Assembly: GCF_040939125.1 (NCBI RefSeq)
Contig: NZ_CP162495.1
Location: forward strand, 3,658,001-3,722,000
DNA: 64,000 nucleotides
Reading direction: 5' to 3'
Source: Clostridium sp. BJN0013
Lineage (GTDB): Bacteria; Bacillota; Clostridia; Clostridiales; Clostridiaceae
Shown: in pieces, positions 8,017 to 46,374 of the stretch
Position numbering within the stretch: position 1 is the stretch's first letter
Layout of the letters: every line of letters starts with the position of its first letter
Notes under the pieces: generated by a model
Databases searched by the model: none
Told to the model about the DNA's origin: nothing
Seen by the model: the letters and a program-made list of their open reading frames with translations, nothing else
Position numbers and translations under genes: made by a program

Positions 8017-9270
8017 TTACTCCATAATCCTATAGGGACTATCTTTAGTTCCCTCACCATTAATTGGAGTTACTTCACTTTTTAAATATAGGACAGGTGC
8101 CACTCCACCCGTACCATCATTTGCATTATCACCATATATACCATCTTCTCCTACGGCCCGTACAATATCAGAATAATCTGCAGAAGGAGTGCGTAACCAG
8201 TACCAGGAAATACTGTTATCTTCTATGGAACTTTTTTTATATTGCCATGTTCTATCATAAACAAAATTTTTCACTTCTTTTGTTGAAAGTAAAAAAACTT
8301 TATCTGTAACGTTCTTATAATAGCTGGAATCATAATTTTTTATACAATCTGTAATTTTTGTATTGTATTTATATAATTCTCTACCTCCCTCCATTATCTC
8401 CTTATCTATGTGGGCCAGTATGCACCTATGGGTTACTTCCCTTATACTATTCCTCTCTTCATATGTAAAATTATACAGAAATCCTGGTTGCTTATCATAA
8501 GAATTATAAGATACATGATCCCTATCTGGTAATTGACTGCTGTATTTCACTTCTCTATCATGGGAATTAAGCCACTGCCTTAAATTGGATTTCTCCCAAT
8601 AATTACTTCCAAAACCTATCCTGTCATCATCCCCTCTGCCATCCGTTTTATCCCCACTGGCATCAAAAGCTTTAAAACAGATTATTTTTTCTGAAAAAAT
8701 CATATATCCATTTACATCTTTATTTATTACTCTCCATAATATAGGACTGCCATTATATTTTCCAAATTCAATATAATCTCCTATATTTATTGATAAATGT
8801 ACATTCTTAACCTGAGTAGGAGTAAAAAAAATTCCTGCATACCAAACAGCTGTTCCAATAATAAAACAGATAAAAACATACTTTATTTTTATAGTTATTT
8901 TTGACTTAACCCTCTTATTTTTTTGTAATTTCAATACACCATTATTTTTTGCAGTTTGTTGGTACTTAAAATCTATGGATTTTAACCAGGTGTCTATAGC
9001 CCATAGAGCATCTTCCTTTGTGAAATCAAAATTATTATGGAGCTCATTTACTAATTGGTTATAATCATATTCATCTATTTCCTTTTTAGTGCCATTCAAA
9101 ATTTTAGACATAATATATGTATCTAAAACTTTAATCAAAATTCTAACTTCTCTTTCATATTGGCTGCATAAATCCATCAATAGTCCCTTTAGTCTTATTT
9201 TGTCATTACAAAGCTCCTTACCATATTCCTCAATTAAATTTTTCAATACTATTTCCACATCTTTTTTCAT
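8017..9270 (-). CDS. DUF6273 membrane protein linked to the Hsp70 cluster
   Basis: 417 residues. The N-terminal ~100 residues (KNLIEEYGKELCNDKIRLKG..., FTKEDALWAIDTW) form a helical domain that I have seen attached to Hsp70-type and stress genes in Clostridia. A single membrane helix follows (YVFICFIIGTAVWYAGIFF). The C-terminal ~220 residues start GDYIEFGKYNGSPILWRVI and end WLRTPS...VAPVLYLKS, the pattern of DUF6273, a formylglycine-enzyme/lectin-like extracellular fold. So the protein likely joins a cytoplasmic sensor domain to a surface domain. It is the last gene of the Hsp70-motor cluster, 36 bp or more after the OmpA-type gene. Function unknown. Confidence 0.7.
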   Translation of the reverse strand: MKKDVEIVLKNLIEEYGKELCNDKIRLKGLLMDLCSQYEREVRILIKVLDTYIMSKILNGTKKEIDEYDYNQLVNELHNNFDFTKEDALWAIDTWLKSIDFKYQQTAKNNGVLKLQKNKRVKSKITIKIKYVFICFIIGTAVWYAGIFFTPTQVKNVHLSINIGDYIEFGKYNGSPILWRVINKDVNGYMIFSEKIICFKAFDASGDKTDGRGDDDRIGFGSNYWEKSNLRQWLNSHDREVKYSSQLPDRDHVSYNSYDKQPGFLYNFTYEERNSIREVTHRCILAHIDKEIMEGGRELYKYNTKITDCIKNYDSSYYKNVTDKVFLLSTKEVKNFVYDRTWQYKKSSIEDNSISWYWLRTPSADYSDIVRAVGEDGIYGDNANDGTGGVAPVLYLKSEVTPINGEGTKDSPYRIME

Positions 9271-9306
9271 TTAAGGTTCACCTCTTACCTGTGAAGCGAC
9301 TAAAAA

Positions 9307-10044
9307 TTATTTTGAAAGAATACTGTCTATTTGTCTAATCGATTCTTCGTCTTTTAATCTAAACTTGAATATTACTCTTCTTGATTTTTCCTGATTCACG
9401 CTTCCATCAGAATTTTTAATAAGCTGACTTTTAGATTTTCCATTTGCAGTAATAATATTTTTTAAGATCTCCTTGCTGTAGCTGTCTAAATTTTTAAAAT
9501 TATTATTTAATATATAGTTTACTATACTATTTGCTCTTTTCTGTGATAGGTCCATATTGTAATCATAGTCTCCTACATCATCAGTATGTCCTTCAATGAC
9601 TATTTCTGAAACTGAACTTATATACTTAGGGGAAGTAAGCACATTAACATACTGAGGTATAAATTTGTCAAGACTGGATTTAAACTCCGGTCTTATATCT
9701 GATTTATTGAATTCAAAAAGCACATCACTGCTAAACACAATATCTCCTGTATTCTTATCTATATTAATATCCAATCCCGCACTTTGAAAAGATTTTCTTA
9801 TATCCTCAATGATACTTTGCCTTACTCCTATTATTTTTTCCACTTGCAGCCTGAGATTTTTCAATTGTTCCTGTTTCAAATTTAATTGGGCATGTTTTAC
9901 AGCATTAGTATAGATAAAAAATAATAATATAAATAACAATATGGTACTTAAAAGATCCGTAAATATGCGCCATATATTGCCATCATCCTTTGATGTTCTT
10001 ATTATTCTACTATACCTGCCAAACATTCTATCAAATCCTCTCAT
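9307..10044 (-). CDS. MotB/ZorB-like OmpA-domain membrane protein
   Basis: The frame opens at 10122, but that start lies inside the upstream gene. The Met at 10044 (or 10029) is more likely and gives ~245 residues. A single N-terminal membrane helix, IFTDLLSTILLFILLFFIY, carries an Asp near residue 30, at the position of the proton-accepting Asp of MotB and ZorB. A coiled-coil segment follows. The C-terminal OmpA/MotB peptidoglycan-binding domain has VLFEFNKSDIRPEF, IEGHTDDVGDYDYN and LSQKRANSIVNYIL. The gene directly upstream encodes a MotA/ExbB-type channel subunit, so the two should form an ion-driven motor anchored to the cell wall. Confidence 0.82.
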   Translation of the reverse strand: MRGFDRMFGRYSRIIRTSKDDGNIWRIFTDLLSTILLFILLFFIYTNAVKHAQLNLKQEQLKNLRLQVEKIIGVRQSIIEDIRKSFQSAGLDINIDKNTGDIVFSSDVLFEFNKSDIRPEFKSSLDKFIPQYVNVLTSPKYISSVSEIVIEGHTDDVGDYDYNMDLSQKRANSIVNYILNNNFKNLDSYSKEILKNIITANGKSKSQLIKNSDGSVNQEKSRRVIFKFRLKDEESIRQIDSILSK

Positions 10045-10081
10045 ATCCAAGTTTTTATCTCGTTTTAACCAATATATGGTA

Positions 10082-11352
10082 CTACTTTTTATAATCTTTA
10101 TTGAAATATTCCATCTTATCAACTATAGTATTTAAAATGGCTTCATGATTACTCTGATATTCTTTCATATCTTTATATATCTGGGCAAACATTTCACTTT
10201 TTTGTTCATTATATGCAACCATATAAATTTTAAATTCATCTATATATTTTACTTTCACACTATTATAAAAATCCTTCACTTCTTCTAAAAGTTTTTTCTG
10301 GTTACTTTCTAAATTATCAAGAGAAGAATAAAAATTATCAGTCAAATTATCTAATTTCTCGTATATATCCACATAACTTTTTTCCACCTTTTTTTGACCT
10401 TTATTAATATCTCTAACACAACCCTCTAAAATATCAAATTTTTTATCCAAATTATTTATACTTTTATTAAAAGTACCTGTAAGTCTACTAAAGCCTTTAA
10501 AAATCAAATCAAATCCTTCTACAGATTCTTCTAATCTTTTATTAAAACTTGTCATATATTCAATAGATTTTTGGAATTCCTTTGGAAAGTCAGAAAACTT
10601 TTTCACAAATTCATGAGTTTTCTCCATAGTATCTAAAGATTTATTCATAATTTCCCTGGAGATTTTGCCGAATTCATTTATAGTTTCATTATTTGATGCA
10701 GACAATTTTTCAATGGCTGTTTCTATTCTTTGAAAGGACTTCCTAAAATTATTTTTACGCAGTTTATTATCCATATAGTCCTGAAGCTTGACCATAATAT
10801 TCATCAATAATTGTTCTGCATCAAATACTCTGGTAATAAATGTGAGTATTAACGAAAATGCAATACCTACTATGCTGGCATAAAAAGCTACTCCCATGCC
10901 TGACAATATAGGGCTTATATTGTCTACAGTAAATTCTCCTGTTCTAAGAGAATTTAAAGATATGGTAAGCCCTGTAAATGTTCCTAAAACCCCCAGAGAA
11001 TAAATACAGATATGGTCATATTAATTACACTTATAATATTTATTACAGGAATGTTCAATTTATTGAATATCTTGTTATTTGATAAATATCTATAATTTGA
11101 AAAGTAAGCTTCTATATAAGATCGGGTATTGATATAATCGGATTTATTCACCATATTGCTATATCCTTCTATTAGATCTTCCACCCCATAAAAGGATTTT
11201 TTACAGATGCCTTCATCTATACTCTTTAGCCCCCTATAAACTATTCTGTAAAGAAATATATCAACTAAAAACATTATAACTTCTATAAAAAAAATTGCAC
11301 TACTAACATCACTGCTGAATATACCCTTTATAAAATTGGCCAGACCTGTCAT
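10082..11352 (-). pseudogene. MotA/ExbB/ZorA-like channel subunit with long helical tail (frameshifted at a G tract)
   Basis: Two frames encode one protein. The first (10984-11352) has an N-terminal membrane helix and ends at INMTISVFILWGF. The second continues in another frame with GVLGTFTGLTISLNSLRTG, then a third membrane helix (GVAFYASIVGIAFSLILTF) and ~200 residues of coiled coil. The join falls in a run of five C (five G on the coding strand) at 10990-10994. One extra G would restore a continuous protein of ~420 residues. The order of helices plus long tail resembles ZorA and MotA/TolQ proteins. As written the gene is broken. Sequence error, phase variation or programmed slippage are all possible, because the flanking genes are intact. 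Confidence 0.75.
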
Positions 11353-11376
11353 TAAAATTCCTCCCTTGAAGCCCTA

Positions 11377-13203
11377 TTATTTATTTTCAGATGCTTTAAG
11401 TAAAAGTCCTCCTTTTATTTTCTTCTCTGGAAATTTGCCCGGAGATTCTATATTTTTATTATATTCTTTTATAAATTTATCCTTCACACATTCTACATCA
11501 TTTATGGCTCGAGAACATATACTCTCAATTATATGTTCTTTTTGTAGTACCCTTTTAGGTACTCTTGATATATCATCAATAAATTTACACATATACTCTT
11601 CACAAACATCCTCACCAAGGGCAATAACATCCTTATAAGCATTTTTCGCCATAAAATTACCTGGTAATTGTTCCACTGCTTCGTCATAATGATCCGTGGG
11701 CATTCCATCAGTTATGAGAAATATTACAGGTAGTAAAGTTTTGTCATTTATCTTTAACTGATTTAATCCACTGGAAACCATCTCTATGGCACTACCCAGA
11801 GATGTTATACCCTCTGGTTTTATATCCTCATAAATACTATCATTTATTTTTTCTCCTATTTTTACGCTCCACACAGCAGTATCAGAAAATTTTATAATAC
11901 CAAAATTCACAATAATATTATCCAACCTGCATTTTTCTTCTATTTCTGGTATTACAAGCTTCATTCCTTCTTTCACATAGGTTAACCTATTATCAATATT
12001 CATAGATCCTGAACAATCTACCAGCCACATAAAATAAAGAGATTTTTTCATATTATCCATGGAAATAGAAATTTTCCTATTTAATGTCAGTATATTTGTT
12101 TTATAAGCCGCATAAATGGCTGCTCCATTTGATACAACTTCCTTGTAGTCTATATATTCATAAGTTTCTATTTTTCCCAGGGTACCTTCTAGAATATTAT
12201 CTATTATTTTAATTTTGCTGGAACCCCCTGCCTTAATTATTTTATGGATATCCTTTTTGGAGATTTTTGATAAGTCAATAGTATATTCAAGCATATTTTT
12301 TATGGATAATATATAGTGTTCAATACATCTATTTAGTTCCTTCAATGTAAGGGTTGTATCTAAAAAGTTTCCTGGAGGTATATTATAGAGCTTTATATAT
12401 GCCACTTCACTATCATAAGAAAGTATCTCCTTTGCTCTAACTATCTGCTCCATCAAATTTCTTCTACACAGATTAGCGGTTTTATGGTCATAATTACTAA
12501 AATCAAGGTGTTCTTTTTTAAGTATATAATCATAAAGTTCCTCATCAAAATCCAGTCCCCCTAAATTGCTATACCCTTCTGAAGCTAATATATTGAACTG
12601 AATTTCATCTTTTGTCTCTATAATCTTAAGAACAGTTATATCAAGACTTCCTCCCCCAAAATCAAACACAAGTATATTTTCTTCCCTTTTTTTATTTACA
12701 GGTATGTGCATTCCATAAGCTAGGGCCGCTGCTACAGGCTCTTTAATTGTTCCAACAAGTTCAATATCTGCTAATTTTGCCGCTTCCTCTATGATATTAC
12801 ATTGCTTATCCTTAAAATAACAAGGTACTGCGATCACTGCTCCCTGACATCTAAACTTACCTTCTGGTACAGTAGTCTTGATATTATTATAAATATATTT
12901 CAATATGGCAGAACATATATCTGTTGTTGTAAATTCCTTATTATCCAAAAATACAGTTTTTTGTCCATGCGCTATCATTCTTTTAATACTTAAAATATAA
13001 TTTTCAGGATGAAATACTCCTTTTGCCAAAGCCCCATTACCCACATCAAATTTTCCCTGTTTGAAATAAACTGCAGAAGGTACTGTATATTCCCCCATTG
13101 CACCATATATTTCTGCCTTTTTTCCATCCCATTTTGACACAGAGCTGTATGTGGTTCCAAAATCAATACCTACAACTGGATGATGCTGACAGTCATAATA
13201 CAA
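11377..13203 (-). CDS. Hsp70 ATPase domain fused to a von Willebrand factor A domain
   Basis: 608 residues. Residues ~10-370 are an Hsp70/actin-fold ATPase: GIDFGTTYSS phosphate-1 loop, AVPCYFKDKQ, EPVAAALAYG, FDFGGGSLD phosphate-2 loop and the adenosine motif AGGSSKI. There is no DnaK substrate-binding domain. A vWA domain starts at ~390 with a complete MIDAS: D396-x-S398-x-S400 (DCSGS), T467 in GITSLGS and D499 in LITDG. vWA domains bind proteins through a metal ion, so this looks like a chaperone ATPase with a built-in adhesion module. It lies 24 bp upstream of the channel gene and 34 bp after another Hsp70. I know of no characterised homologue. Confidence 0.85.
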   Translation of the reverse strand: MYYDCQHHPVVGIDFGTTYSSVSKWDGKKAEIYGAMGEYTVPSAVYFKQGKFDVGNGALAKGVFHPENYILSIKRMIAHGQKTVFLDNKEFTTTDICSAILKYIYNNIKTTVPEGKFRCQGAVIAVPCYFKDKQCNIIEEAAKLADIELVGTIKEPVAAALAYGMHIPVNKKREENILVFDFGGGSLDITVLKIIETKDEIQFNILASEGYSNLGGLDFDEELYDYILKKEHLDFSNYDHKTANLCRRNLMEQIVRAKEILSYDSEVAYIKLYNIPPGNFLDTTLTLKELNRCIEHYILSIKNMLEYTIDLSKISKKDIHKIIKAGGSSKIKIIDNILEGTLGKIETYEYIDYKEVVSNGAAIYAAYKTNILTLNRKISISMDNMKKSLYFMWLVDCSGSMNIDNRLTYVKEGMKLVIPEIEEKCRLDNIIVNFGIIKFSDTAVWSVKIGEKINDSIYEDIKPEGITSLGSAIEMVSSGLNQLKINDKTLLPVIFLITDGMPTDHYDEAVEQLPGNFMAKNAYKDVIALGEDVCEEYMCKFIDDISRVPKRVLQKEHIIESICSRAINDVECVKDKFIKEYNKNIESPGKFPEKKIKGGLLLKASENK

Positions 13204-13237
13204 AACTTACATCCCCTTCATTCATGATTTTACAATT

Positions 13238-14728
13238 TTAATATAACTTTAAGATCTCGGTTTTTTTTATTTTACTTTCCTTTTGCTCTACAATTACAAT
13301 AACAATTTGATCTTCCTTAACTTCAAAGGTTATATTTATCTCAAGAGTACGCTTAGGTGATGGAATAAGGCCTGAAACGTGTACTGTACCTATATGGGCA
13401 TTTTCTTTTGCAATTTTATGGTTTCCCTGATAAACTTGTATATCTACTTCTGTACAATTATCCTGATCTGTATAAAAAGTAAGAGTTTTTTTTGCAGGAG
13501 TTCTTCTATTTTCATGAATCAACACTACAAATTTCCCTTTGGCATCTTCAACCCCCAGGGCATGTGCAGTCACAGGAATAATTGCTATTTTCTTTCTGGT
13601 ATTTAAATTTCCAGTAAGATATGCCGCATATATGGCCGCCCCTTGAGAAACACATAAACTGGGATCAATGTCTGAATAAACCTTACCTTTTCCAACTATA
13701 TCATTTAACAGATTGTCAAACATGGGAATTTTACTGGAGCCACCAACCTTGATAACCTTATCTATATCCTCTGGTGTTGTATTAGCCTTATTTAATGTAT
13801 TTTTAATTATATTTTTTATCTTTTCATAGTAACTTTCTATAACTTCTTCAAATTCATCTCTGCTAAAATTTCTATCCACATTTACTCCTGGTATAACATT
13901 GAGAACTGCCATATATGCATTATCTGTAAAGCTCAATGTCTCCTTGGTTTTTATAGCTTCTGCCATAAGTGCCTGTTTTCCTCTCTTTCTCAATCTTTCA
14001 TTAGTTTCAGATTGAAAATCAATACCTTCAACTTCTATAATATGTTTTAAAAGGGCTCTATCAAAGTCCATACCTCCCAGCCTATCATCTCCTCCAATTC
14101 CAAGTACTTCAAAAATCAAATTTTCATTGTCCTCTTTCAATCTAAAGATTGTAAGGTCAAAAGTTCCTCCCCCTAAATCAAAAACAAGTATTGTTTCTTC
14201 TCTTTTAATATTATCTCTGCTGTGAAGACATCCATAGGCCAGTGCAGCAGCTATGGGTTCCTGAATTATACCTACAAGATTCAATCCTGCTTTTTTAGCT
14301 GCCTGTGAAGTATTTTCCAGCTGATTGGCTTTAAAATAATAAGGCACAGTAACTACAACTCCAGAGGCATTGTACACTCCTTCTGGAAACATATCCTGTA
14401 CACTTTTATATATATATTTGAGTATCATAGCAGAAACATCTATAGGTGAAAATTGTCTATCCCCGAATTTTATTTTTATATCTTTATTATCCATTAACCT
14501 TTTTACACCAATACAAACATTTGAAGGTTCAAAAATTCCGCTGTCAAAAGCCACAGTATCATAAATGAATTCCTTGCTTCTTTCATCAAAATAAACTACT
14601 GATTGAAAAACATTACTTCCTCTTGGAGAATATGTCTGAACCCCCTGCCCTGTCCAGAATGAAATAGAACTAAAAGTTGTTCCCAGATCAATTCCAATGA
14701 CTGGTCTATTTTGACTGTCATAAGGCAT
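13238..14728 (-). CDS. Hsp70-family ATPase lacking the lid domain (third Hsp70)
   Basis: 496 residues, against ~610 for DnaK. The ATPase domain is intact: GIDLGTTFSS at the start, VVTVPYYFKANQ, EPIAAALAYG, FDLGGGTFDL and VGGSSKIPMF. A short beta-type substrate domain follows (TPAKKTLTFYTDQDN..., GLIPSPKRTLEINITFEVKED). The alpha-helical lid is absent. It lies 39 bp after the coiled-coil gene and 34 bp before the Hsp70-vWA gene. Specialised Hsp70s of this kind usually act on one partner rather than as general chaperones; partners here are probably the neighbouring membrane proteins. Confidence 0.9.
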   Translation of the reverse strand: MPYDSQNRPVIGIDLGTTFSSISFWTGQGVQTYSPRGSNVFQSVVYFDERSKEFIYDTVAFDSGIFEPSNVCIGVKRLMDNKDIKIKFGDRQFSPIDVSAMILKYIYKSVQDMFPEGVYNASGVVVTVPYYFKANQLENTSQAAKKAGLNLVGIIQEPIAAALAYGCLHSRDNIKREETILVFDLGGGTFDLTIFRLKEDNENLIFEVLGIGGDDRLGGMDFDRALLKHIIEVEGIDFQSETNERLRKRGKQALMAEAIKTKETLSFTDNAYMAVLNVIPGVNVDRNFSRDEFEEVIESYYEKIKNIIKNTLNKANTTPEDIDKVIKVGGSSKIPMFDNLLNDIVGKGKVYSDIDPSLCVSQGAAIYAAYLTGNLNTRKKIAIIPVTAHALGVEDAKGKFVVLIHENRRTPAKKTLTFYTDQDNCTEVDIQVYQGNHKIAKENAHIGTVHVSGLIPSPKRTLEINITFEVKEDQIVIVIVEQKESKIKKTEILKLY

Positions 14729-14767
14729 GTTATTACCTCCCTCCTAAATATGAAATCTATATTCACA

Positions 14768-15604
14768 TCAATGATCCTGAGCCATGTACTTATACACTAT
14801 TACTTCTGCAGGCCTTACTATATGCCTATACTCTTCCGTATATATCATATCTTTGTAAATATATCCGTACCTGGCAACCTCATAAATCCTTCCATGAAAA
14901 TCACTATTGTCAGTTTCCTGAACATCAAACACTTTATGAGTTGTATAATTATACATTTCAAATTTTTCTACTTTGATTCTAGTTATATCCAGAGACTTTA
15001 ACAACTCTTCCATTTTTTCAAGTAATTTTTCATAGACGGTTTTTATAAGTTCAATAATTTTGTTAACCTCTCCATTTAAATCAGTATAGTCAATTCCTGC
15101 CTTTATACCGTCTATAATATTTAGTAAATACATATTTATAAACTTAAAATAATCCTCACTTAGTTTATCTCTATTACCTCTTACGGTACACATATTATTA
15201 TAGTTTTCATTTGCAACGGCTTGAATTTGTAATAAATCTTTTTCCTGTACTTCACAAAACTCTATTAAATCAGGTATATCCAGTAATGAACTACCATGAA
15301 ACATTTTTCCATTAACCTCTAATACGTTATTTAACATCCTTGGCACCATATAAATACCCTTGCTCTTGTCCTTATATAAATTTTTGATATTTTCTTTCAC
15401 AAGTATTTTTTCTAAATTGTTGTATTGAATATTGAATTCGTTTATAATACCGGAAATTTCCCCTATATACTTTTCCATATTTTTCGAGAATTTCTCCCAC
15501 CTTTGGATCCAGTCATAATATTGTTCTTTTAATATATTAAATTGTTTCAAATCATATTGAAACTGATGCTTAAATTTTATAACATCCTGATTTATATCCT
15601 CCAA
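14768..15604 (-). CDS. Uncharacterised helical protein of the Hsp70 cluster
   Basis: 278 residues, mostly charged and helical with likely coiled coils in residues 1-75 and 160-210 (EKLLEKMEELLKSLDITR). No signal peptide or membrane helix. The C-terminus is aromatic (YEVARYGYIYKDMIYTEEYRH). I recognise no domain. It sits between two Hsp70 genes with 39- and 53-bp gaps, so it is probably an adaptor or client holding the complex together, perhaps a J-protein-like or nucleotide-exchange role. It has no HPD motif, so it is not a classical DnaJ. Confidence 0.7.
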   Translation of the reverse strand: MEDINQDVIKFKHQFQYDLKQFNILKEQYYDWIQRWEKFSKNMEKYIGEISGIINEFNIQYNNLEKILVKENIKNLYKDKSKGIYMVPRMLNNVLEVNGKMFHGSSLLDIPDLIEFCEVQEKDLLQIQAVANENYNNMCTVRGNRDKLSEDYFKFINMYLLNIIDGIKAGIDYTDLNGEVNKIIELIKTVYEKLLEKMEELLKSLDITRIKVEKFEMYNYTTHKVFDVQETDNSDFHGRIYEVARYGYIYKDMIYTEEYRHIVRPAEVIVYKYMAQDH

Positions 15605-15657
15605 TTCATCTCACCTCCAACTATTACTATATCTATTTCACTGTATGTTAAGCATTT

Positions 15658-17226
15658 CTATTCCTTAATTACATTTAACGTTATTTCTTCCTGAGATCCT
15701 GTACCTAGTGCAGCAGCAGTTACCTTTACAATATTTTCCTCATTTACTTCAAACTTAACAGTTATTTTTTCGGCTCCTTTTGGTGCAGGAGGAATATTAC
15801 TTAATTTGAACTCTCCTATAAATGTTGCTTTGTCCCTGCCTTCATCATCTTTTTCATTTACAAAAGCTATATCTTCTGATGATTGATATACGTATATAGT
15901 AACTTCTGTCTGTGCATCCTTTTGGGTTTTATATTCCTTTTCTCTAATTACAGAAGCCTTTTTGGGTATTTCTGTGCCCTTTTCTATTATATTAGAAAAT
16001 TCCATACCTTCTGTCATAATACCTAGATTATGAGTTACAATATTAAAAACATCTCCTTCACGAGGAGTTCCCATAGAAGCTGCAAATATTGCCGCCCCTT
16101 CTGCTACTATAGTAATAGGATTAAAATCACTATAAGGTTCTACTTTAAAAACTTCTTTAATTCTACTTTTAACTAAAGGAACTAAAGAGGAACCCCCTAC
16201 TAAGATCACCTTGTCAATATCCTCCATAGAAAGTTTTGCATTATCAAGGGCTAATTTTACACTTTCATCAGTCTTATCAATTAGAGGAGAAATAGCCTGT
16301 TCAAAAGTATCTCTGGTAATTTCCATATCCAAATGCAACAGCTCCCCTTCTCCTGTCTGAATTATATTAGGTAAAAGTACATTGGCGCTATTGTTAAAAC
16401 TCAATTCAATTTTTACATTTTCAGCAATTTCTTTTAATTTTTGCTGTGCAGCTTTCATTTTTTTCTTGCTGATGCCTTGATCTCTTTCCATATCCAATAG
16501 GTCGATACCCTTATTTTTCAGTTTAAAATCCTCATTTATAATTTCCATAATACTTCTGTCAAAATCATCTCCCCCCAGCTTTGATATACCTTCTTTGGAT
16601 AAAATCTCATACTTATCTCTATCTAAATTATTTTTTTTAGTCTGTATCTTTAGTATACAAACATCAAAAGTTCCCCCTCCTAAATCATATACTAAAACAT
16701 TCTGATCTTTATTGGAATCAAATCCATACATAATGGCTGCAGCCACAGGTTCTTCCAAAAGAGCCAACACATTTAAGCCTGCCATTTCCGCTGCCTTTCT
16801 AGTAGCTAATTTTGCATTGTCTGTAAAATTGGCCGGCACACATATTACCACATCATATAAACTTCCTTCTGATTCAAAGTCTTTCTGCTCATAGGCTGCA
16901 TCTACAAGTTTTGAAAGAATTTCAGAAGCTATTTGTTCCGGACTATAGGTTTTTTCAAAAATAGACAGTTCATATCCTTCCTCCCCCATATGTCTTTTAA
17001 TTGAACTAACAGTATTCATAGGATCAAGCATAGCCCTGCCTTTAGCTTCTTCTCCTACAAGTTTTGTATTCTTATCAATAAATGATACCACCGATGGCAT
17101 GTACTCTTTTCCATTTATTTTAAACACTCTAGTTCTACCATTTTCATACACTGAAACTACTGAAGTTGAAGTACCCAGATCTATACCTAATTTATATTTA
17201 CTATACTTTATTTCTAAGCCTGCCAT
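15658..17226 (-). CDS. Hsp70-family ATPase lacking the lid domain (second Hsp70)
   Basis: 522 residues. It has GIDLGTSTSVV, VVICVPANFTDNAK, EEPVAAAIMYG, VYDLGGGTFDV, KLGGDDFDR and LVGGSSLVPLV, the complete Hsp70 ATPase signature set. A beta-sandwich substrate domain (IPKKASVIREKEYKTQKDAQ..., IPPAPKGAEKITVKFEV) closes the protein, with no helical lid. It follows the first Hsp70 by 24 bp on the same strand. Sequence differs clearly from its two Hsp70 neighbours, so the three paralogues are old and probably not interchangeable. Confidence 0.9.
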   Translation of the reverse strand: MAGLEIKYSKYKLGIDLGTSTSVVSVYENGRTRVFKINGKEYMPSVVSFIDKNTKLVGEEAKGRAMLDPMNTVSSIKRHMGEEGYELSIFEKTYSPEQIASEILSKLVDAAYEQKDFESEGSLYDVVICVPANFTDNAKLATRKAAEMAGLNVLALLEEPVAAAIMYGFDSNKDQNVLVYDLGGGTFDVCILKIQTKKNNLDRDKYEILSKEGISKLGGDDFDRSIMEIINEDFKLKNKGIDLLDMERDQGISKKKMKAAQQKLKEIAENVKIELSFNNSANVLLPNIIQTGEGELLHLDMEITRDTFEQAISPLIDKTDESVKLALDNAKLSMEDIDKVILVGGSSLVPLVKSRIKEVFKVEPYSDFNPITIVAEGAAIFAASMGTPREGDVFNIVTHNLGIMTEGMEFSNIIEKGTEIPKKASVIREKEYKTQKDAQTEVTIYVYQSSEDIAFVNEKDDEGRDKATFIGEFKLSNIPPAPKGAEKITVKFEVNEENIVKVTAAALGTGSQEEITLNVIKE

Positions 17227-17250
17227 TTCTATTCCCCTCCTAAAAAATTA

Positions 17251-18813
17251 TCATTTTGTCTTTATATCAATTTTTTTAGACTTAATCTTTTCACTTCTAA
17301 TTAACTCTTCTACTAAATTCAAATCCAATTGTCCATCATTTTCAAAAGCCTTACGGATAATAGGCATTGTATAACTATTTTCCATTAATTCTACCCCTGT
17401 AAAATGGATTATATTATCATCATCCATCTCAAAAATGGCTCCTACAGCTACTTCTTCTTTTTCAGGTTTGGTAATAGAAATTTTCAACTGTCCTACCTCC
17501 TCATCTTTTTCCAGTTCTTTATGTTCTCCCCTAAAAACTCTGAATGTAACAACTTCTTGGTATTCATCCACAGTATAGGCAATCAAGCCTGCCCTACATG
17601 GTAATAGTGTATTTTTATAAACAACCGGACAAAATTCCAGTACATTTTCGTTATTTAACAAAGCTACTCCATAACTGAAATTAACTTTTTCATCCAACAT
17701 AAGATCTTCCTTAAATATATCTGTAATAGCACTGCTTTCTTCACTGGCTATAGAATTTGAAAGACTTACTGCTAATATGGCAGCTCCATTTGATACTACT
17801 TCATCTACATTAGGTGCAGTAAATGGGTCTCTTACTTCTTTTTTTAATATTTCTCTAATTATTGGAGTCTTAGTGGCTCCCCCCACTAAAATCAATCTGT
17901 CAATATCTTCTGAGGTCATATTGGCATCTTTTAATACACTTTTCACCTTCTGTATGGTTTTATCAATGAGAGGTTTTATCAAATCATAATATTCATCCTT
18001 TGATAATTCAAAATCCAGATGATAATCCTTTAAAATATTAGGAATAATAATTGAGGTATTCTCCTTCGAAGACAGTTCAATTTTGGCATTTTCAGCAGCC
18101 TCTTTAATTTTCTGTCTAGCGGCTGCATATTCTCTTTCTTTTCCCATTTCAATATCAATTTTAGTATCTTCCTTTATTCTTTTATATACAACACTACATA
18201 TTCTCTCATCAAAATCATCTCCTCCAAGCCTTGAATCTCCATCAAGGGCAATGGCTTCAAATCTATTTCCCTTTACCTTCATTATGGAGACATCAAAGGT
18301 TCCTCCCCCTAAATCGTATACCATTATAATTTGGTCTTTATTTTGATTTATCCCATAACTCACTGCAGCAGCAGATGGTTCTGCCATCAACCTAAGTACA
18401 TTGAATCCAGCTTTCCTGGCTGCATTTTTTGTTGCTTTTCTCTGTTCCGATGTAAAATATGCCGGTGTAGTTATTACTGCATCGGTGATTTTTTCACCTA
18501 GTGTAAATTCTGCTTTCTCCTTAATGGCCTTTAATATTTCACAGGCTATATCCTGTGAAGTCATTTTTTGCTTTCCTATAATGTAGGTAGTGTCCTTTCC
18601 CATATCCCTTTTTGTTGAACTTATGGTATTTGAAGGATCCATTATAAGCTTAGCCTTTGCTGGATATCCTGTAATAATTTTGCCATTACTGATTGATACT
18701 ACGGAAGGAAAAGTATTTTTTCCATCTAAAAGTATAGTTTTTACTTTTCCCCTCTTTACATAAGAAATAACTGAATTAGTAGTACCTAAATCAATACCTA
18801 CAACTACTGACAT
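17251..18813 (-). CDS. Hsp70-family ATPase lacking the lid domain (first Hsp70)
   Basis: About 520 residues. The ATG at 18811-18813 has GGAG 9 nt upstream; a TTG two codons earlier is spaced too closely. GIDLGTTNSVI, ITTPAYFTSEQR, EPSAAAVSYG, VYDLGGGTFDV, RLGGDDFDE and LVGGATKTPII are all standard Hsp70 motifs. The substrate-binding half is divergent (FEMDDDNIIHFTG) and the helical lid is missing. A ~100-bp gap to the DUF445 gene upstream probably contains the promoter for the Hsp70-motor genes, which then run to 8 kb with gaps mostly under 60 bp. Confidence 0.9.
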   Translation of the reverse strand: MSVVVGIDLGTTNSVISYVKRGKVKTILLDGKNTFPSVVSISNGKIITGYPAKAKLIMDPSNTISSTKRDMGKDTTYIIGKQKMTSQDIACEILKAIKEKAEFTLGEKITDAVITTPAYFTSEQRKATKNAARKAGFNVLRLMAEPSAAAVSYGINQNKDQIIMVYDLGGGTFDVSIMKVKGNRFEAIALDGDSRLGGDDFDERICSVVYKRIKEDTKIDIEMGKEREYAAARQKIKEAAENAKIELSSKENTSIIIPNILKDYHLDFELSKDEYYDLIKPLIDKTIQKVKSVLKDANMTSEDIDRLILVGGATKTPIIREILKKEVRDPFTAPNVDEVVSNGAAILAVSLSNSIASEESSAITDIFKEDLMLDEKVNFSYGVALLNNENVLEFCPVVYKNTLLPCRAGLIAYTVDEYQEVVTFRVFRGEHKELEKDEEVGQLKISITKPEKEEVAVGAIFEMDDDNIIHFTGVELMENSYTMPIIRKAFENDGQLDLNLVEELIRSEKIKSKKIDIKTK

Positions 18814-18921
18814 ATTCAATGTCTCCTTTCTATTAGAAAAATAATGACAATATTATCAATAACAAACTGTTAAGGACTATATTGTCACGTTAATACCTAC
18901 TGTATATTTTTATTAAAAATA

Positions 18922-20256
18922 TTATAAATGAAACATTTTTGTAATTAAAGGTAAATAAACCTGATTTATAAAAAGAAAAACAATAAAACCAAAAATTGCT
19001 CCAATTATACATCCATTGATGCGTATCCAATTTAATTCATTGCCAACCTTTAACTGGATAAAATTATTCAATGATTCATCTGTCATATTATTCAATACTT
19101 TTTTTATAATAGCGCCAATAACACCATAGCTTGATTTAACCACATTATAAATTAATTCCTTTATACATTCATTAACTGTGTTTTTAAATTTATTGTCAGT
19201 TTTAAGGTGATTCCAATAATTATGCAGTTCATCTTTTACCCATGCAATTAAAGGCTGTATGTTATCTACATGAGATTGAATTTTTTCATCAGGTTCACTT
19301 TTAAAAATATAAGAAATACTTGTTATGATTTTTTCCAATTCATCCTGTATTTCAATTTTTGCTATAGTTTTCTGCTTCCATTTTTCAATATTATTTATTA
19401 ATTCTTCATCCTCCTTAAGTTTTTCTATTAAAATTTCAATTTTATTTAAGAATTCAGTATGAATTAACTGTTCTTCATCCTTTAAACTATGAAGCGTTTC
19501 TATTATCTGTTCCTGAATTGAAGAAGCAATATCATTTACATTTATAGTATTGGTCCCCTTGCCTACCCCTAAAGCAAATTCCATTAGAATTTTTTTAAAT
19601 CCCTTTACCTTGTTTACATTATCTTTTATAAGTTTATCTATAATTTTACTAATTTCTTTATTGACTTTTTCTTCATCTGTTTTAATAATTAATTCTTCCA
19701 ATATAGATTTAAATAATATTTTGCAATGTTTATCTCCTATAGCAAATTTAAGTATCTCACTAAGCCATAAAGATAAATTAAATTCTTTTAATTTATGTCT
19801 AAGATTTTTTTCAATAAATAAGGCTACATTACTTGAATCAATGCATCCAATAATATTTTCAGCAAGATCTTTTAATTGATCATAAAAAACAGTTTTATCT
19901 TTAGCACTATCTTCAATAAATTCAATTATATTATCTGTAATATTTAATGCATCTATTTTTTCTTTCAATATTTTCCTACTTAAAAGTTCATTTTCTACTA
20001 CATTAACTATTTGCTCTACAACTTTAACCCTGTTTCTAGGTATTACAGCAGTATGCCATGAAAATCCCAATGGTTTTTTAAACAGTGCAGTTACGGCAAA
20101 CCAATCAGCTATGCTTCCTACTAAAGCTGCTTCTATAATAAAGCCTGCCATTCTCACATAAAAATTATTATCAAAATGTATTTTTAACAGAATACTTATA
20201 CCAAAAGCAATAAATAGAATTATTAAAAGCATATCTGCTATTTTCTTGTTTTTCAT
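18922..20256 (-). CDS. DUF445 family membrane protein
   Basis: 444 residues. The N-terminus has two membrane helices around the DUF445 signature GSIADWFAVTALFKKPLGFSWHTAVIPRNR. The C-terminus carries another pair of hydrophobic segments (INGCIIGAIFGFIVFLFINQVYLP) after LKVGNELNWIRINGC, another family-conserved motif. The middle ~300 residues are helical and charged. The family is widespread in Firmicutes but has no settled biochemical role; the Bacillus relative YheB/YlbE type is sporulation-linked in some species. It lies 14 bp after a paralogue and upstream of the Hsp70 genes. Confidence 0.85.
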   Translation of the reverse strand: MKNKKIADMLLIILFIAFGISILLKIHFDNNFYVRMAGFIIEAALVGSIADWFAVTALFKKPLGFSWHTAVIPRNRVKVVEQIVNVVENELLSRKILKEKIDALNITDNIIEFIEDSAKDKTVFYDQLKDLAENIIGCIDSSNVALFIEKNLRHKLKEFNLSLWLSEILKFAIGDKHCKILFKSILEELIIKTDEEKVNKEISKIIDKLIKDNVNKVKGFKKILMEFALGVGKGTNTINVNDIASSIQEQIIETLHSLKDEEQLIHTEFLNKIEILIEKLKEDEELINNIEKWKQKTIAKIEIQDELEKIITSISYIFKSEPDEKIQSHVDNIQPLIAWVKDELHNYWNHLKTDNKFKNTVNECIKELIYNVVKSSYGVIGAIIKKVLNNMTDESLNNFIQLKVGNELNWIRINGCIIGAIFGFIVFLFINQVYLPLITKMFHL

Positions 20257-20270
20257 CTCATTTCTCCCAT

Positions 20271-21521
20271 TTAAGATATGTAAAATATACTATTTAAAAG
20301 AAAAAACAGAATCCCTACCAGGCCACCCACTACAGAACCATTGATTCTAATCAGCTGCAGATCATTGCCTGCTTTTGATTCAATTAATTCTATGAGCATA
20401 TCATTTGAATATTTATTTAAATTCTCCTTTATAACCTCACCTATGCTATTATGGAAATTATCAATAAATTTATTTAGCAATGTTTTTAAATAAATATCTA
20501 CTTTTTTCTGCACATCTATATTATACCTAAATCTACAAATAAAACTATAAATTTCATTTTCTATTTCACCCACAAAACTTTTTACTATTTTATTTTCTTT
20601 GAATTGTTTCCCTGTATAATGGTCAATACTAATATCTTTAAATCCGCTTATTTTCCAGGCTTTAAATTTTTCTTCCATATCCTCATCTGAAACTATATTA
20701 TTTAGTTTAATGACAATCCATTTCTTAAATTTAATTCTTTCCTGATTATCCAAATCCTTAATATTATTTAAATATTGAACCAGATCTTTTTGAATTATTA
20801 CAGCAATTTTATCTGGAGATAAATTAAGTATAAAGTCTAATACCACTGTATTCACTATTGCCCTTCTTCTAGCACCTCTTTCATAAGACACCTTTGTTTT
20901 ACTAACAAGTTCCTCAAGTATTTTACTGGCCTTTTCCGTCTTTATAATTGTTTGTATTTCTTCAATTATAAAATTAATAACTTTATCTCCACTTCCTTTT
21001 ATAAGAGAAATCTGCAAAGAAGAAATTATGACTTTCCATAAATTAAACTCCATCAATCTATTTATAAGTGAATTGGAATTTATACCTCCATTACCTGAAT
21101 TATCTCCAGTTAAACTTTCTTCTACTATTAATCCAACTATTTTTTTGATATCCTTATCCCCATTATCTTCAAATAAAAATTTTAAAATAGGTTTAGAAGT
21201 ATCATATTCCAATAAAAATTTCTTTAAATATTCCTTAGACAATAATTCTTCCGTAACCATATTAACTAGACCCTCAAGTATTTTTTCCCTATTTCTCGGT
21301 ATTATCTCTGTTTTAAAAGGAATTCCAAGAGGTTTTTTAAATAATGCAGTAATACCATACCAGTCAGCAAAGCCTCCAATCATGGAAGCACAAAAAGCAC
21401 TGCTTATTAATCCGCCCCAAAAAGTCTTATAAAAAGGACAAGTTATTAAATATCCAAGGGTAACTATAATCAATATTATTGTTGCCTTATAGCGATTCAT
21501 CTTACAATAACCCACTTTCAT
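20271..21521 (-). CDS. DUF445 family membrane protein (paralogue)
   Basis: 416 residues, or ~409 if translation starts at the internal Met at 21500. It has MIGGFADWYGITALFKKPLGIPFKTEIIPRNR near the N-terminus and SKAGNDLQLIRINGSVVGGLVGILFFLLNSIFY at the end, the same paired signatures as its neighbour. The two proteins are distant paralogues, suggesting a heteromeric membrane complex. The strong conservation of ADWxxxTALFKKPLG in both supports a shared function. No gene lies within 130 bp upstream, so it should be the first gene of the cluster. Confidence 0.85.
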   Translation of the reverse strand: MKVGYCKMNRYKATIILIIVTLGYLITCPFYKTFWGGLISSAFCASMIGGFADWYGITALFKKPLGIPFKTEIIPRNREKILEGLVNMVTEELLSKEYLKKFLLEYDTSKPILKFLFEDNGDKDIKKIVGLIVEESLTGDNSGNGGINSNSLINRLMEFNLWKVIISSLQISLIKGSGDKVINFIIEEIQTIIKTEKASKILEELVSKTKVSYERGARRRAIVNTVVLDFILNLSPDKIAVIIQKDLVQYLNNIKDLDNQERIKFKKWIVIKLNNIVSDEDMEEKFKAWKISGFKDISIDHYTGKQFKENKIVKSFVGEIENEIYSFICRFRYNIDVQKKVDIYLKTLLNKFIDNFHNSIGEVIKENLNKYSNDMLIELIESKAGNDLQLIRINGSVVGGLVGILFFLLNSIFYIS

Positions 21522-34194: not shown

Positions 34195-34360
34195 AATATA
34201 CTCCTTATATTAAATATTTTCATATTTATATATTCACCTCGACCTTAAGAAATATTCATCTCCTATTAGAGATTCTCTTATATAGAGGAAAGACAGCAAT
34301 TCATACAAATATGCAGTCTAGCTCTAACATCAAAACTAAAAAACCTAGTAGGATTTTTCC

Positions 34361-36127
34361 GAGGCCACTGAAAAAGCTTCGCTTTTTTCCTAAAGATTGA
34401 TTTAAGCAGTAAAAAGAGCACGGAGTATTTCATTTCTTTCTGAAATATTTCGTGCTCTTCTCTCATTAATGTGTTACTTAAAGCTTATTGCTCCGTTAGG
34501 AGCTTTATGATTCTCTTGATATTAACAGTGAATATTGTAAGTGCACCTTGCATTTGCATGTTAATTAAGCCCGACGATAATGCCATATCATAGCCGTGCT
34601 GGTGTTTAAGTTCACTGTTCTTAGCTTCAATCATATATCGTTGTCTTGCTCGTTCCTTAAAGTATTCTGTTTCTTGAAAAGCCATTTGATCTTTATGAAT
34701 ATCAGACTTTATAGATACAGAATAGGTCTTGGACTTGCAACCTTCTTTGTAACATCCTTCTCCTCGAGAACAGCATTTGCATTTATTAACATCAAAATAG
34801 TATGTAGTAACTTGATTTTTATTATGATTTTTCTTACCCTGACGGGCTTTTCTTATGGCTATATGACCGGCAGGGCAAATAAACATTCCAGCATCCTTGT
34901 TGAATTGGAATTCTTCCTCTTTCGTACGAGATCCACATGAAATTATTGGATTAAGTTTTGAAATCAACTTGATTTGATTTTCTTTGGCATACTCTAAATT
35001 TCCTTTTTCCGAATAAGCAGTATCACCAATTATCTCATCAACTGTCATGCCTGTGTTTTGACTTTTTTCAATTAACTCTTGAAGTTCTTTACCATCGGAT
35101 TTTTCTCCGGTAGTAATAGTAGCTCCTGTAATTATGCGTTCTTCACTCATTGCAATGTGTGTTTTGTACCCAAAAAATGAAGAATCGGCTGTCTTATGCC
35201 CTACTCGGGCATCTTCATCCTTTGAAAGCGCTAACTGCTCCAGGTCATCTTCGATGGCCTCGTTTAAATAATTGAGTCGTTCTTTAATCTTCTCATATAT
35301 CACAAGCTCAGGTGTAGGTTCAACAACATTGATTAAATCTTGGCAGTATCTTATAATATCTTTAATCTTATCACCTGTAACCTTTTGAGGAAACTTTTCT
35401 TTTATCTCACTGTTAACTGCGTAGATTTCCTTCCTCAAAGACTTTGCCCGTTCCAATAGCACTTCCTGAGCAGACTTCTGGTTATATCTTGCTTTGGTAT
35501 GTGTGGAATCAACTATAAGAGTTCTACTGGCTAAAACTCCCTTAGCAATTGCAATTTCAACTGTTTTCTTGATTAATAAATCAAGCATATTCGTATCTTT
35601 CAAGCGCAGCTTTCTAAATTTTGTTAATGTACTTGGATGAATCAGATCAGCTTCCTCAGGTGCAAGATTCAGAAAGTATTTAAATGACATGTCATAAAGT
35701 GTTCTTTCAACTACGTCTTCATCGGAAAGTTCATAGGTTGTCTTCAATATAAGGTATTTAAACAGCATGATGGGATCCTTGGCACCACGCCCCATGTCAA
35801 CACTGTAATTATTGAGTAGTTCATCGTATATGAATGAGAAATCAACCAAATCATTGAGTTGTCTTAGAAAATGGTCCTTTGGAATAATCAATTCATATAG
35901 TCCTTGATACTTACTCATTACAAATTGTTGCTGCACCTTTATCATATAGTTCATTCCTTCCAATCAATAAATCATTATCTTCTTAGTTATATTATTCGCC
36001 ATGACGTTTCAAAATCCTTTTTGTTTGAACAACTTAACATAAAAGAAATATCATTTATTGGTAAAAAAGGCAAAACCGCCATCACTTTTGTGATGACGGT
36101 CAATATTCTTAGTTTTTCAGTGGCCTC
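34361..36127 (-). mobile_element. IS1182-family insertion sequence, copy A (complete)
   Basis: A 1767-bp element with terminal repeats starting GAGGCCACTGAAAAA at the left and ending TTTTTCAGTGGCCTC at the right. It is flanked by a 9-bp direct repeat, GATTTTTCC. It sits in the loop of a terminator-like hairpin (CCTAGTAGGA / TCCCACTAGG in the flanks). It encodes one intact transposase. A second copy of equal length lies in the opposite orientation at 37992-39758, and a truncated third at 46375-46672. Confidence 0.92.
34485..35963 (-). CDS. IS1182-family transposase (copy A)
   Basis: 492 residues. The N-terminal DUF772-type domain (FLRQLNDLVDFSFIYDELLNN, PIMLFKYLILKTTYELSDEDVVERTLYDMSF) is followed by the DDE catalytic domain: VDSTHTKARYN, DGKELQELIEK, IIGDTAYSEKGNLEYAKE and a cysteine cluster CKCCSRGEGCYKEGC. 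The E residue is in YMIEAKNSELKHQHG. The protein is almost identical to the transposase at 38156-39634, with only a few substitutions (K/E, T/I, T/A), so both copies are recent and probably active. Confidence 0.95.
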   Translation of the reverse strand: MEGMNYMIKVQQQFVMSKYQGLYELIIPKDHFLRQLNDLVDFSFIYDELLNNYSVDMGRGAKDPIMLFKYLILKTTYELSDEDVVERTLYDMSFKYFLNLAPEEADLIHPSTLTKFRKLRLKDTNMLDLLIKKTVEIAIAKGVLASRTLIVDSTHTKARYNQKSAQEVLLERAKSLRKEIYAVNSEIKEKFPQKVTGDKIKDIIRYCQDLINVVEPTPELVIYEKIKERLNYLNEAIEDDLEQLALSKDEDARVGHKTADSSFFGYKTHIAMSEERIITGATITTGEKSDGKELQELIEKSQNTGMTVDEIIGDTAYSEKGNLEYAKENQIKLISKLNPIISCGSRTKEEEFQFNKDAGMFICPAGHIAIRKARQGKKNHNKNQVTTYYFDVNKCKCCSRGEGCYKEGCKSKTYSVSIKSDIHKDQMAFQETEYFKERARQRYMIEAKNSELKHQHGYDMALSSGLINMQMQGALTIFTVNIKRIIKLLTEQ

Positions 36128-36406
36128 GATTTTTCCCACTAGGTTTTTATTATCATACTTTATTTTAAATCCTGCTCATAAGCTTCAACCATTTTCTTAA
36201 GCATATTTCCAGTTATTTTGTTAAGGTTGAACATTTAGGAATGTAGATGCAACGAAAGATCAATTAGAATTAAATACAAATCCTGTTACAGTTCAATAAT
36301 GATGGAATTAGAAAGTATTTCAACATTACAGAATTTAAATACAACACTTGTTAAGGTTCAACGTAATTCCATGTAAGCACTTTTATTTTATTCAAACACA
36401 TTCCAT
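36128..36406. repeat. Inverted-repeat flank with internal duplicated motif
   Basis: The ~100 bp next to copy A (36128-36234) are nearly identical, in reverse, to the flank of copy B (37880-37991). Copy A's side carries an extra ~120 bp bracketed by TGTTAAGGTT(G/C)AAC at 36221 and 36350. The similarity resumes to ~36415. The inverted repeat is therefore longer than the IS itself. Confidence 0.6.
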
Positions 36407-36590
36407 GTTACGGTTCATTATTGATGATGCTTGCAGGAGGGCATTTGAATATGGTGCATTCAGCTACAAAACAATAAAGAATATTTGTGAGAAGAACTCG
36501 ATTTCCCTACCGGCAAGCTATCATGAAAACTATATTAATCCTAATGGTACTAATGTGTCAAGAGATCTATCGGAATCTGACCTACGGACA
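36407..36590 (+). pseudogene. IS21-like transposase, C-terminal fragment
   Basis: Translates as FIIDDACRRAFEYGAFSYK, then TIKNICEKN and NYINPNGTNVSRDLSE, which resembles the last residues of Mu/IS21-type (IstA) transposases (R-A-x-E-Y-G-x-x-S-Y-x-x-I-K). It is cut at its 3' end by the IS4-type element whose terminal motif CTGACCTACGGACAG starts near 36580. Confidence 0.45.
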
Positions 36591-37660: not shown

Positions 37661-37991
37661 TAAAAAATAAAAATTTTTTACACCAAAAGCCCTGGCGATA
37701 CAAGAGCTTTTATAAATTATGGTAAAAAACTTGAGTGAGATATTAAAGTATTCTTATGACATTAACCATTATATCCAACTTTAAATATTTTATATTTATC
37801 TCCCAAAAGTTCTGTGATATAATAACGCTAATGAATTGTAACATGGAATGTGTTTGAATAAAATAAAAGTATTTACATGGAATTACGTTGAACCTTAACA
37901 GAATAACTGGAAATATGCTTAAGAAAATGGTTGAAGCTTATGAGCAGGATTTAAAATAAAGTATGATAATAAAAACCTAGTGGGAAAATCC

Positions 37992-39758: not shown

Positions 39759-39833
39759 GTAAAATCCTACTAGGTTTTTGAATTTTGATGTTCAATAAAT
39801 CACGCATTCAAGTAAAAAAATGAGTTGAAATAA

Positions 39834-46191: not shown

Positions 46192-46374
46192 GTAAAGAGG
46201 TATACATTAGATATTGAAACATACTCGAAAATTTAGAACTAAGAAGAAATTATTCAATTGCAATTATGATAACCACTTCATTATCAAATCGTTTTTTTAT
46301 GTTTATTAGAGGATTTATAATTGTAGGGCTTGTCATGAGAGACACGTGTAGTATTTTTTCAGGAATTGAAAGAT

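Follow-up and report, generated by a model that had tools for sequence, protein, structure and literature searches.

A Clostridium operon that appears to combine a Zorya-type motor pair, a Ter-type Hsp70 array and TerY-P-type vWA and receptor domains

In the proposed working of Zorya systems, the membrane proteins ZorA and ZorB (ZorAB) detect perturbation of the envelope; upon infection, ZorE moves to the membrane. ZorAB, MotAB and ExbBD belong broadly to one class of ion-driven motors in the inner membrane (PMC11890865). Hsp70 and GrpE are carried by GAP1-N2 GTPase-centric conflict systems, some of which have an Hsp70 without a peptide-binding domain (PMC7159879), and CoCoNuTs include Hsp70 as well as parts of TerY-P, a triad of vWA, PP2C and kinase (PMC11090510, also the source of the name). 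The ter genes are tied to tellurite, oxidative stress, colicins and phage, and their disruption lowers phage inhibition (PMC12054061). All four papers are cited here from excerpts. Here we analyse a 64,000-nucleotide stretch (the window; positions 3658001–3722000) of the 4.10-Mb single-contig genome of Clostridium sp. BJN0013, in which a predicted operon appears to be a chimera of a Zorya motor, a Ter-type chaperone array and a TerY-P vWA with its putative receptor.

The eight genes run from 18819 to 8017, all on the minus strand and, by open reading frame (ORF) calls, with gaps of about 24–55 bases. Their order is Hsp70a, Hsp70b, a GrpE-like gene, Hsp70c, an Hsp70–vWA fusion, zorA (in two frames), zorB and a gene for a DUF6273 membrane protein (Table 1). 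A first-pass annotation of the sequence had described such a series of close same-strand genes at 9307..18813. The ORFs lie where it placed them, but the operon runs one gene further, to the DUF6273 membrane protein (8017–9270), which is separated from zorB by a 36-base gap. We scanned the operon and its near flank (ten proteins, 8017–20256) with Pfam. HSP70 was found in four operon proteins (E = 1e-56 to 3.6e-109) and VWA_2 (4.1e-7) in the fourth of these, in line with the three lid-less Hsp70s and the Hsp70–vWA fusion first proposed. By contrast, the supposed helical adaptor (14768–15604) turned out to be a GrpE-family protein (Pfam GrpE, 5.7e-11).

A channel pair related to ZorA and ZorB

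The stator had been read as a MotB/OmpA-type protein with an Asp in its membrane helix, and both features were recovered: Pfam assigns an OmpA domain (1.1e-15), and Asp30 of the transmembrane (TM) helix is invariant in all seven aligned ZorB sequences, as are GHTD and N163, L166, S167, R170 and A171 of the OmpA-type motif. ZorB scored 226 bits with the PADLOC ZorB1 model (PDLC00609) and 140 bits with ZorB2. Among NCBIfam models the best was ZorB2, at 79 bits, ahead of ZorB1 at 53.5 bits (cut-off 400 for each), whereas MotB-type models reached 22 bits. Solved chains matched by ZorB include 8vvi_A, the best, and 8qyd_F.

ZorA is best judged in the relatives in which it is intact. The C-terminal piece in the window has a weak PADLOC ZorA match (28.5 bits). 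In a same-genus genome (G126), the intact protein combines three TM segments with a tail of some 250 residues, which is the layout of Zorya. The MotA/ExbB-type channel with a long helical tail described by the first-pass annotation is of the ZorAB kind, but in this assembly it is split between two frames. Intact ZorA (locus L035) scored 51.5 bits with PADLOC ZorA1 and 47 bits with its best NCBIfam model, antiphage_ZorA_2 (47–48 bits overall, cut-off 100). Its best solved relatives were 8vvn, 8vvi, 8qyy and 8qyd, all weak matches (E = 0.002–0.012; 0.002–0.005 for 8vvn and 8vvi). The 8qy entries bear the name ZorA, and the 8vv chain lengths (696 and 378) fit the Shewanella and Sulfuricurvum ZorA proteins in the excerpts of PMC11890865. 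Because Zorya models scored best for both proteins, with both below the curated NCBIfam Zorya cut-offs, the channel pair is assigned by its sequence to the ZorAB family, outside the curated subtypes. A flagellar or TonB-type motor was ruled out by the same ranking.

In contrast to Zorya, the partners of ZorAB here are Hsp70, GrpE-like, vWA and dufN–DUF6273 proteins (dufN is introduced below). Neither Pfam nor PADLOC found a ZorC-, ZorD- or ZorE-type nuclease effector within the operon. At the level of the genome, the ZorD model had no match, while its control matched in 10 of 14 genomes, and the ZorE model matched only two HNH stretches (about 85 positions, E = 1.4e-5) more than 800 kb away. 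The absence of ZorC and ZorD noted in the first pass thus holds for ZorD; the ZorC model found nothing in the window genome, but its control matched 0 of 14 genomes.

Ancestry of the chaperone array and of the vWA and dufN domains

Hsp70a, Hsp70b and Hsp70c comprise a nucleotide-binding domain (NBD) and the β-part of the substrate-binding domain (SBD). DnaK models match Hsp70a and Hsp70c only to about 480–486 of 596–625 model positions, and Hsp70b aligns to residues 5–471 of DnaK 2v7y, ending before the helical lid; since all three alignments stop at SBD-β, the lid is missing. None of the three is a canonical DnaK (296–384 bits against cut-offs of 648 and 823), and the PADLOC candidate model PDC-M61B matches them weakly (17–38 bits). 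Comparing Hsp70a with solved structures at 1e-100 returned nothing, a threshold that was probably too strict. The catalytic positions, which we take to be the equivalents of DnaK K70, E171 and D194, are kept in all four Hsp70 proteins, the fusion included, and the fusion carries Ser at what is presumably the equivalent of DnaK Thr199.

The genome of the window holds a second Hsp70–GrpE array (L047, 1346–1355 kb), one of eight Ter-type arrays that we found in the family (the others in G126 (L053), G127 (L054), G138, G052, G062, G098 and G023). These contain Hsp70a, a GrpE-like gene and Hsp70c; most have Hsp70b as well, and four of the eight have Hsp70d. All eight stretches carry a TerD-family gene (in two pieces in L050), four carry TerC and three a TerF-like vWA; no ZorAB was present within the stretches taken around them. 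The operon shares with these loci the order Hsp70a-(b)-GrpE-Hsp70c-(d) and the grouping of Hsp70s by position. It differs in that its Hsp70d is fused to a vWA, ZorAB is added and Ter genes are missing: eight TerD, TerF and TerC proteins of the Ter arrays gave no tblastn match in the 64-kb window or in two further loci (L035 and L036).

In a midpoint-rooted tree of 38 Hsp70s, window Hsp70a, Hsp70b and Hsp70c grouped with their Ter-array namesakes with support of 1.0, 1.0 and 0.95, and the fusion grouped with Hsp70d at 0.99. A tree of NBDs concurred (1.0, 1.0, 0.91 and 0.99, respectively). Branching inside groups a and d was weakly resolved (0.28–0.32 for a; 0.57 and 0.85 in d, where the results differed). 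The GrpE-like protein is 25–32% identical to the GrpE-like proteins at the matching place in the Ter arrays. The position-wise grouping indicates that a single ancestral array gave rise to both the Zor-linked array and the Ter arrays, and that the fusion is an Hsp70d in which a TerY-like vWA has replaced the substrate-binding domain.

Residues D396, S398, S400, T467 and D499 of the metal-ion-dependent adhesion site (MIDAS) of this vWA are invariant in the three genomes that keep the cluster. The domain grouped with the vWA of one TerY-P locus (L098; support 0.91) and next with those of L095, L096, L097 and a Methylomonas plasmid (0.86), on a long branch and at 25–35% identity; the vWAs of two further dufN loci, L100 and L101, were placed elsewhere in the tree. 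TerF was considered as the source and rejected, as it gave no significant match.

The DUF6273 membrane protein begins with a 128-residue domain, which we label dufN, that is common with TerY-P loci. It occurs in 10 of 200 family genomes and, outside the genus, at eight loci in seven genomes. A TerY-P kinase and vWA lie beside dufN in six of these eight (five also have PP2C); L099 and L102, the latter with the weakest dufN match, lack this pair alongside. Three of seven related dufN proteins have a central TM helix (L097, L098 and L099), followed in L097 and L098 by YARHG domains, a layout equal to dufN–TM–DUF6273 in the operon. No TM helix was found in L096, L100 or L101, and L095 has only a hydrophobic stretch inside dufN. 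The second domains at the TerY-P loci (L095–L098, L100 and L101) are varied (DUF5050, WD40-like, YARHG and Sel1), and these proteins look to be related receptors or adaptors that can be exchanged for one another.

Among 72,556 plasmid records (E ≤ 1e-3), ten held relatives of the vWA. Of three of these that were examined more closely, the Rhodoferax record has vWA-PP2C-kinase, that of Deinococcus vWA-PP2C and that of Moraxella vWA-TerD-vWA-TerY_C-PP2C. On a Methylomonas plasmid, five tandem ORFs that match dufN immediately follow genes for a kinase, a vWA and a PP2C; this cluster is the only dufN match and the best vWA match in the plasmid set, its vWA scoring just under Pfam cut-offs. Judged by these comparisons, the vWA and dufN, two genes apart in the operon, both trace to TerY-P loci. 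Unlike the TerY-P triad, however, the operon has its vWA fused to an Hsp70 ATPase domain, and the Pfam scan of the ten proteins showed neither a kinase nor a PP2C. The likeness to GAP1-N2 systems lies in Hsp70, GrpE and the conflict-system context; the GTPases and FNIII proteins of those systems are not among the ten proteins, and ZorAB is not mentioned in the excerpts of PMC7159879.

Conservation, distribution and layout of the cluster

Two same-genus genomes, G126 and G127, keep the cluster, and we compared each with the window using our own script for the ratio of nonsynonymous to synonymous divergence (dN/dS). The order Hsp70a-b-c-vWA-zorA-zorB-DUF6273 and the close gene spacing are alike in the three genomes, and the DUF6273 gene is present in all of them. 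Against G126 and G127, dS was 0.32–0.62 for the cluster genes and dN/dS 0.064–0.273, both zorA pieces included. Constraint was strongest for Hsp70a–c (0.064–0.104) and ZorB (0.083–0.085), followed by the zorA pieces (0.149–0.197), Hsp70-vWA (0.229–0.234) and the DUF6273 gene (0.250–0.273), which at 0.484 between G126 and G127 showed the weakest constraint of the cluster. Such low ratios at this dS indicate purifying selection on the genes compared, that is, all but the GrpE-like gene. Of the three clusters, only that of the window has the latter: there, about 885 bases lie between aligned blocks that are separated by 44 bases in both G126 and G127.

In the window assembly, zorA is interrupted near 10985, leaving two pieces in different frames, whereas in G126 and G127 it is a single 422-aa ORF to which each window piece matches in its own part. 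A programmed frameshift is unsupported, as both relatives read straight through. The two frames would fit a Zorya-like locus that is decaying in this genome, with the other genes carried as passengers or kept for a chaperone role only. We consider this very improbable: both zorA pieces have low dN/dS against the relatives, the other genes are open, and the break adjoins a short run of G, a context prone to sequencing errors, one of which may have caused it.

The Hsp70 subfamily occurs in 8 of 206 family genomes (E ≤ 1e-60), three of which have the fusion, in 2 of 391 class genomes (1e-60) and in 1 of 398 phylum genomes (1e-50), the window's own included in the last two and three candidates scored per genome. 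We also took 32 ZorB loci, a set that omits three class hits (G471, G316 and G436) and family hits with E of 2.6e-7 or weaker. BLAST with the window pieces found no ZorA in 7 of 20 class loci (L059, L060, L062, L063, L066, L067 and L069), which means that the 32 include loci without a true ZorAB pair. Because Hsp70 genes were near ZorB only in same-genus loci, the joining of ZorAB with Hsp70 looks like one event. The co-occurrence proposed as a check in the first pass is thus seen as an order kept in three genomes, but the Hsp70–ZorAB link is confined to one genus in the data searched. Of the two outcomes named beforehand as refuting that annotation, genes not conserved together and an ordinary flagellar or TonB-type pair, neither was obtained.

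This distribution bears on whether the locus is two independent cassettes, an Hsp70-vWA-dufN chaperone and receptor set and an orphan ZorAB, that share DNA by chance in one genus. Each half does occur alone elsewhere while the combination is found in one genus only, and the vWA, encoded before zorAB, and dufN, encoded after it, pair by ancestry with no need of ZorAB. However, zorAB sits between the vWA and dufN genes and hence inside the unit, the order is kept in three genomes, and ZorB is strongly constrained (dN/dS of about 0.08). A chance arrangement of this kind seems to us improbable.

Beyond cellular chromosomes, viral contigs yielded no ZorB relative with the two patterns used, plasmids no ZorB at 1e-20 and no fusion at 1e-60, and phage records no dufN at 1e-3. 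A first scan of contigs found nothing and a second, with two narrow patterns, found C. magnum only; neither is evidence of absence.

Several other ZorAB loci are worth recording. In C. magnum (L037:10706-15411; G096 contig 16), a same-strand gene for a dynamin-family GTPase of 867 aa ends 29 bases before zorA, which is followed by zorB. The GTPase is a possible new ZorAB partner; the neighbours scanned included no ZorC, ZorD or ZorE. At seven class loci (L068, L072–L074 and L076–L078), a ZorA/ZorB-like pair adjoins a gene of 306–329 aa whose product resembles TPR proteins on visual inspection; these loci may represent a ZorAB family that is widespread and distinct from Zorya. Ordinary Zorya is present in other family genomes, with ZorC and ZorD in L040 and ZorE in L041; L042 and L043 have genes of 279 and 281 aa where ZorE would sit.

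A sequence scan found promoter-like sites at chance level (100 versus 92 in shuffles) and scattered terminator-like sites (12 versus 4.7), which does not settle the transcription unit; the genes may share a single transcript. Directly upstream lie two DUF445 membrane proteins (18922–21521). Within the genus, DUF445a is restricted to the three cluster genomes. We rejected the pair as members of the system, as DUF445a (E ≤ 1e-40) occurs in 23 other family genomes and in none of the five non-genus array genomes. Recent transfer of an island was likewise considered from divergence against G126 in 500-base bins: identity values were 81–94% in the cluster and 93–98% in flanks past DUF445a, but 84–97% in the Ter array, and nothing was drawn from them. 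The window also contains an inverted pair of near-identical transposase elements with a further partial copy (34355–39764 and 46373–46674) and an IS110-type transposase (57674–58945), and is thus rich in mobile elements.

Table 1 Genes and domains of the operon, in window coordinates
Feature	Position	Strand	Basis
Hsp70a: NBD and SBD-β, no lid	17251..18819	-	Pfam HSP70 1.6e-105
Hsp70b: NBD and SBD-β, no lid	15658..17226	-	Pfam HSP70 3.6e-109
GrpE-like nucleotide exchange factor	14768..15604	-	Pfam GrpE 5.7e-11, exceeds cut-off
Hsp70c: NBD and SBD-β, no lid	13238..14728	-	Pfam HSP70 6.4e-90
Hsp70–vWA fusion: Hsp70d NBD with TerY-like vWA in place of the SBD	11377..13203	-	Pfam HSP70 1e-56, VWA_2 4.1e-7
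vWA domain of the fusion, MIDAS pattern DxSxS...T...D intact	11665..12030	-	Pfam matches spanning 392-500 and 394-513
zorA N-terminal piece, with TM1 and the beginning of TM2	10984..11352	-	80–82% identity to N terminus of intact G126/G127 ZorA
zorA C-terminal piece (TM3, helical tail of ~250 aa), different frame	10082..10906	-	81–82% identity to G126/G127 ZorA
zorB: TM helix with Asp30, OmpA-type peptidoglycan-binding domain	9307..10044 (start 10044 or 10026)	-	Pfam OmpA 1.1e-15
Membrane protein dufN–TM–DUF6273, one TM helix (132-150)	8017..9270	-	Pfam DUF6273 2.6e-16
dufN (our label), N-terminal 128 residues of the membrane protein	8887..9270	-	Domain common with TerY-P loci

A possible machine and what it would mean

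We give a probability of roughly 0.5 to the reading that the genes form one operon for a hybrid machine in which signalling of envelope damage drives chaperones, in phage defence or under envelope stress. ZorA and ZorB would form an ion-driven, peptidoglycan-anchored motor that, as in Zorya, senses envelope damage and moves its cytoplasmic tail. In place of a nuclease, the Ter-type array would serve as the output, its three Hsp70s without a lid being joined by the Hsp70–vWA protein and, in this species, by a GrpE-like exchange factor, perhaps in a shared complex. The vWA may act as a docking head that binds dufN of the membrane protein, the ZorA tail or both. By analogy with Zorya, the vWA would be the point at which the tail contacts the chaperone module, with dufN tying the vWA to a membrane receptor. 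Docking would place the ATP-driven chaperones at the membrane, and there entering phage proteins could be held or unfolded, or damaged proteins repaired. A more specific version, in which a wall-anchored, ion-driven rotary motor powers or gates the Hsp70 array through vWA–dufN, such that an envelope breach leads to protein unfolding or sequestration and not to DNA cutting, is one that we put forward tentatively and think somewhat unlikely.

In favour of the hybrid machine count the kept order and spacing under purifying selection, the Zorya models as best matches of the pair, the invariant Asp30, the intact Hsp70 catalytic positions, the grouping of the Hsp70s with Ter arrays, the descent of vWA and dufN from TerY-P loci and the effect of ter disruption on phage inhibition (PMC12054061). 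A number of findings weigh against it. The GrpE-like gene is missing from G126 and G127, two of the three cluster genomes, and zorA is broken in this assembly. General OmpA-type models give ZorB 54–67 bits, more than ZorB1 (53.5), albeit less than ZorB2 (79). By Pfam, no nuclease and no J-domain protein are among the ten proteins of 8017–20256, and PADLOC found no known defence protein among ten neighbouring proteins. The fusion is limited to 3 of 206 family genomes and, in the class and phylum samples, to the window's own genome (three candidates scored per genome). Hsp70 lies near ZorB in 2 of the 32 loci, both same-genus; the nearest non-genus ZorAB, in C. magnum (G096; ZorB about 70% identical), has two loci without Hsp70, and Hsp70 arrays exist elsewhere without ZorAB.

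The PADLOC result also means that no defence island is visible, one neighbouring histidine kinase having a weak match to the candidate model PDC-M43B. An envelope-stress or proteostasis machine, as opposed to phage defence, would fit these surroundings: the motor would report wall or membrane damage, the chaperones would protect or disaggregate proteins, and Ter arrays may act likewise against toxic oxyanions or pore-formers. The relatives of the array adjoin Ter genes, which the excerpts of PMC12054061 tie to tellurite, oxidative stress, colicins and phage, the operon has no nuclease and the genome no ZorD, and no known defence genes lie among the ten neighbours. However, ZorAB pairs of known function are anti-phage (PMC11890865, excerpts), and ter genes affect phage too (PMC12054061, excerpts). 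We think a purely stress-related role possible but on the unlikely side; phage defence and envelope stress are not separable by sequence, as ter genes, in the same excerpts, bear on phage, colicin and stress alike.

The first-pass annotation knew of no described system of this composition. In the open-licence literature, searches for Zorya, ZorA or ZorB with Hsp70, DnaK or chaperone, for vWA-Hsp70-GrpE and for TerD or TerY with Hsp70 did not return the combination among the matches listed, but its Hsp70s do have a precedent in the Ter-locus arrays without ZorAB. No paper on those arrays was among the matches listed (best 20 of 23). The nearest published cases are the Hsp70 and GrpE of GAP1-N2 systems (PMC7159879) and the Hsp70 and TerY-P parts of CoCoNuTs (PMC11090510). 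The way in which the operon joins parts known from defence and from stress looks new, and what our comparisons add is the apparent ancestry of the non-motor parts, a Ter-type array and a TerY-P vWA and dufN.

The finding draws attention to the Ter-locus Hsp70 arrays and makes dufN a candidate partner for TerY-type vWAs. If the parts work together, ZorAB would be a sensor and motor of general use at the envelope, with an output that is exchangeable, nucleases in one case and chaperones in another; modules would likewise be interchangeable among Ter, TerY-P and Zorya systems. The operon would then also offer a direct handle on the role of the long ZorA tail, which would have to engage chaperone ATPases.

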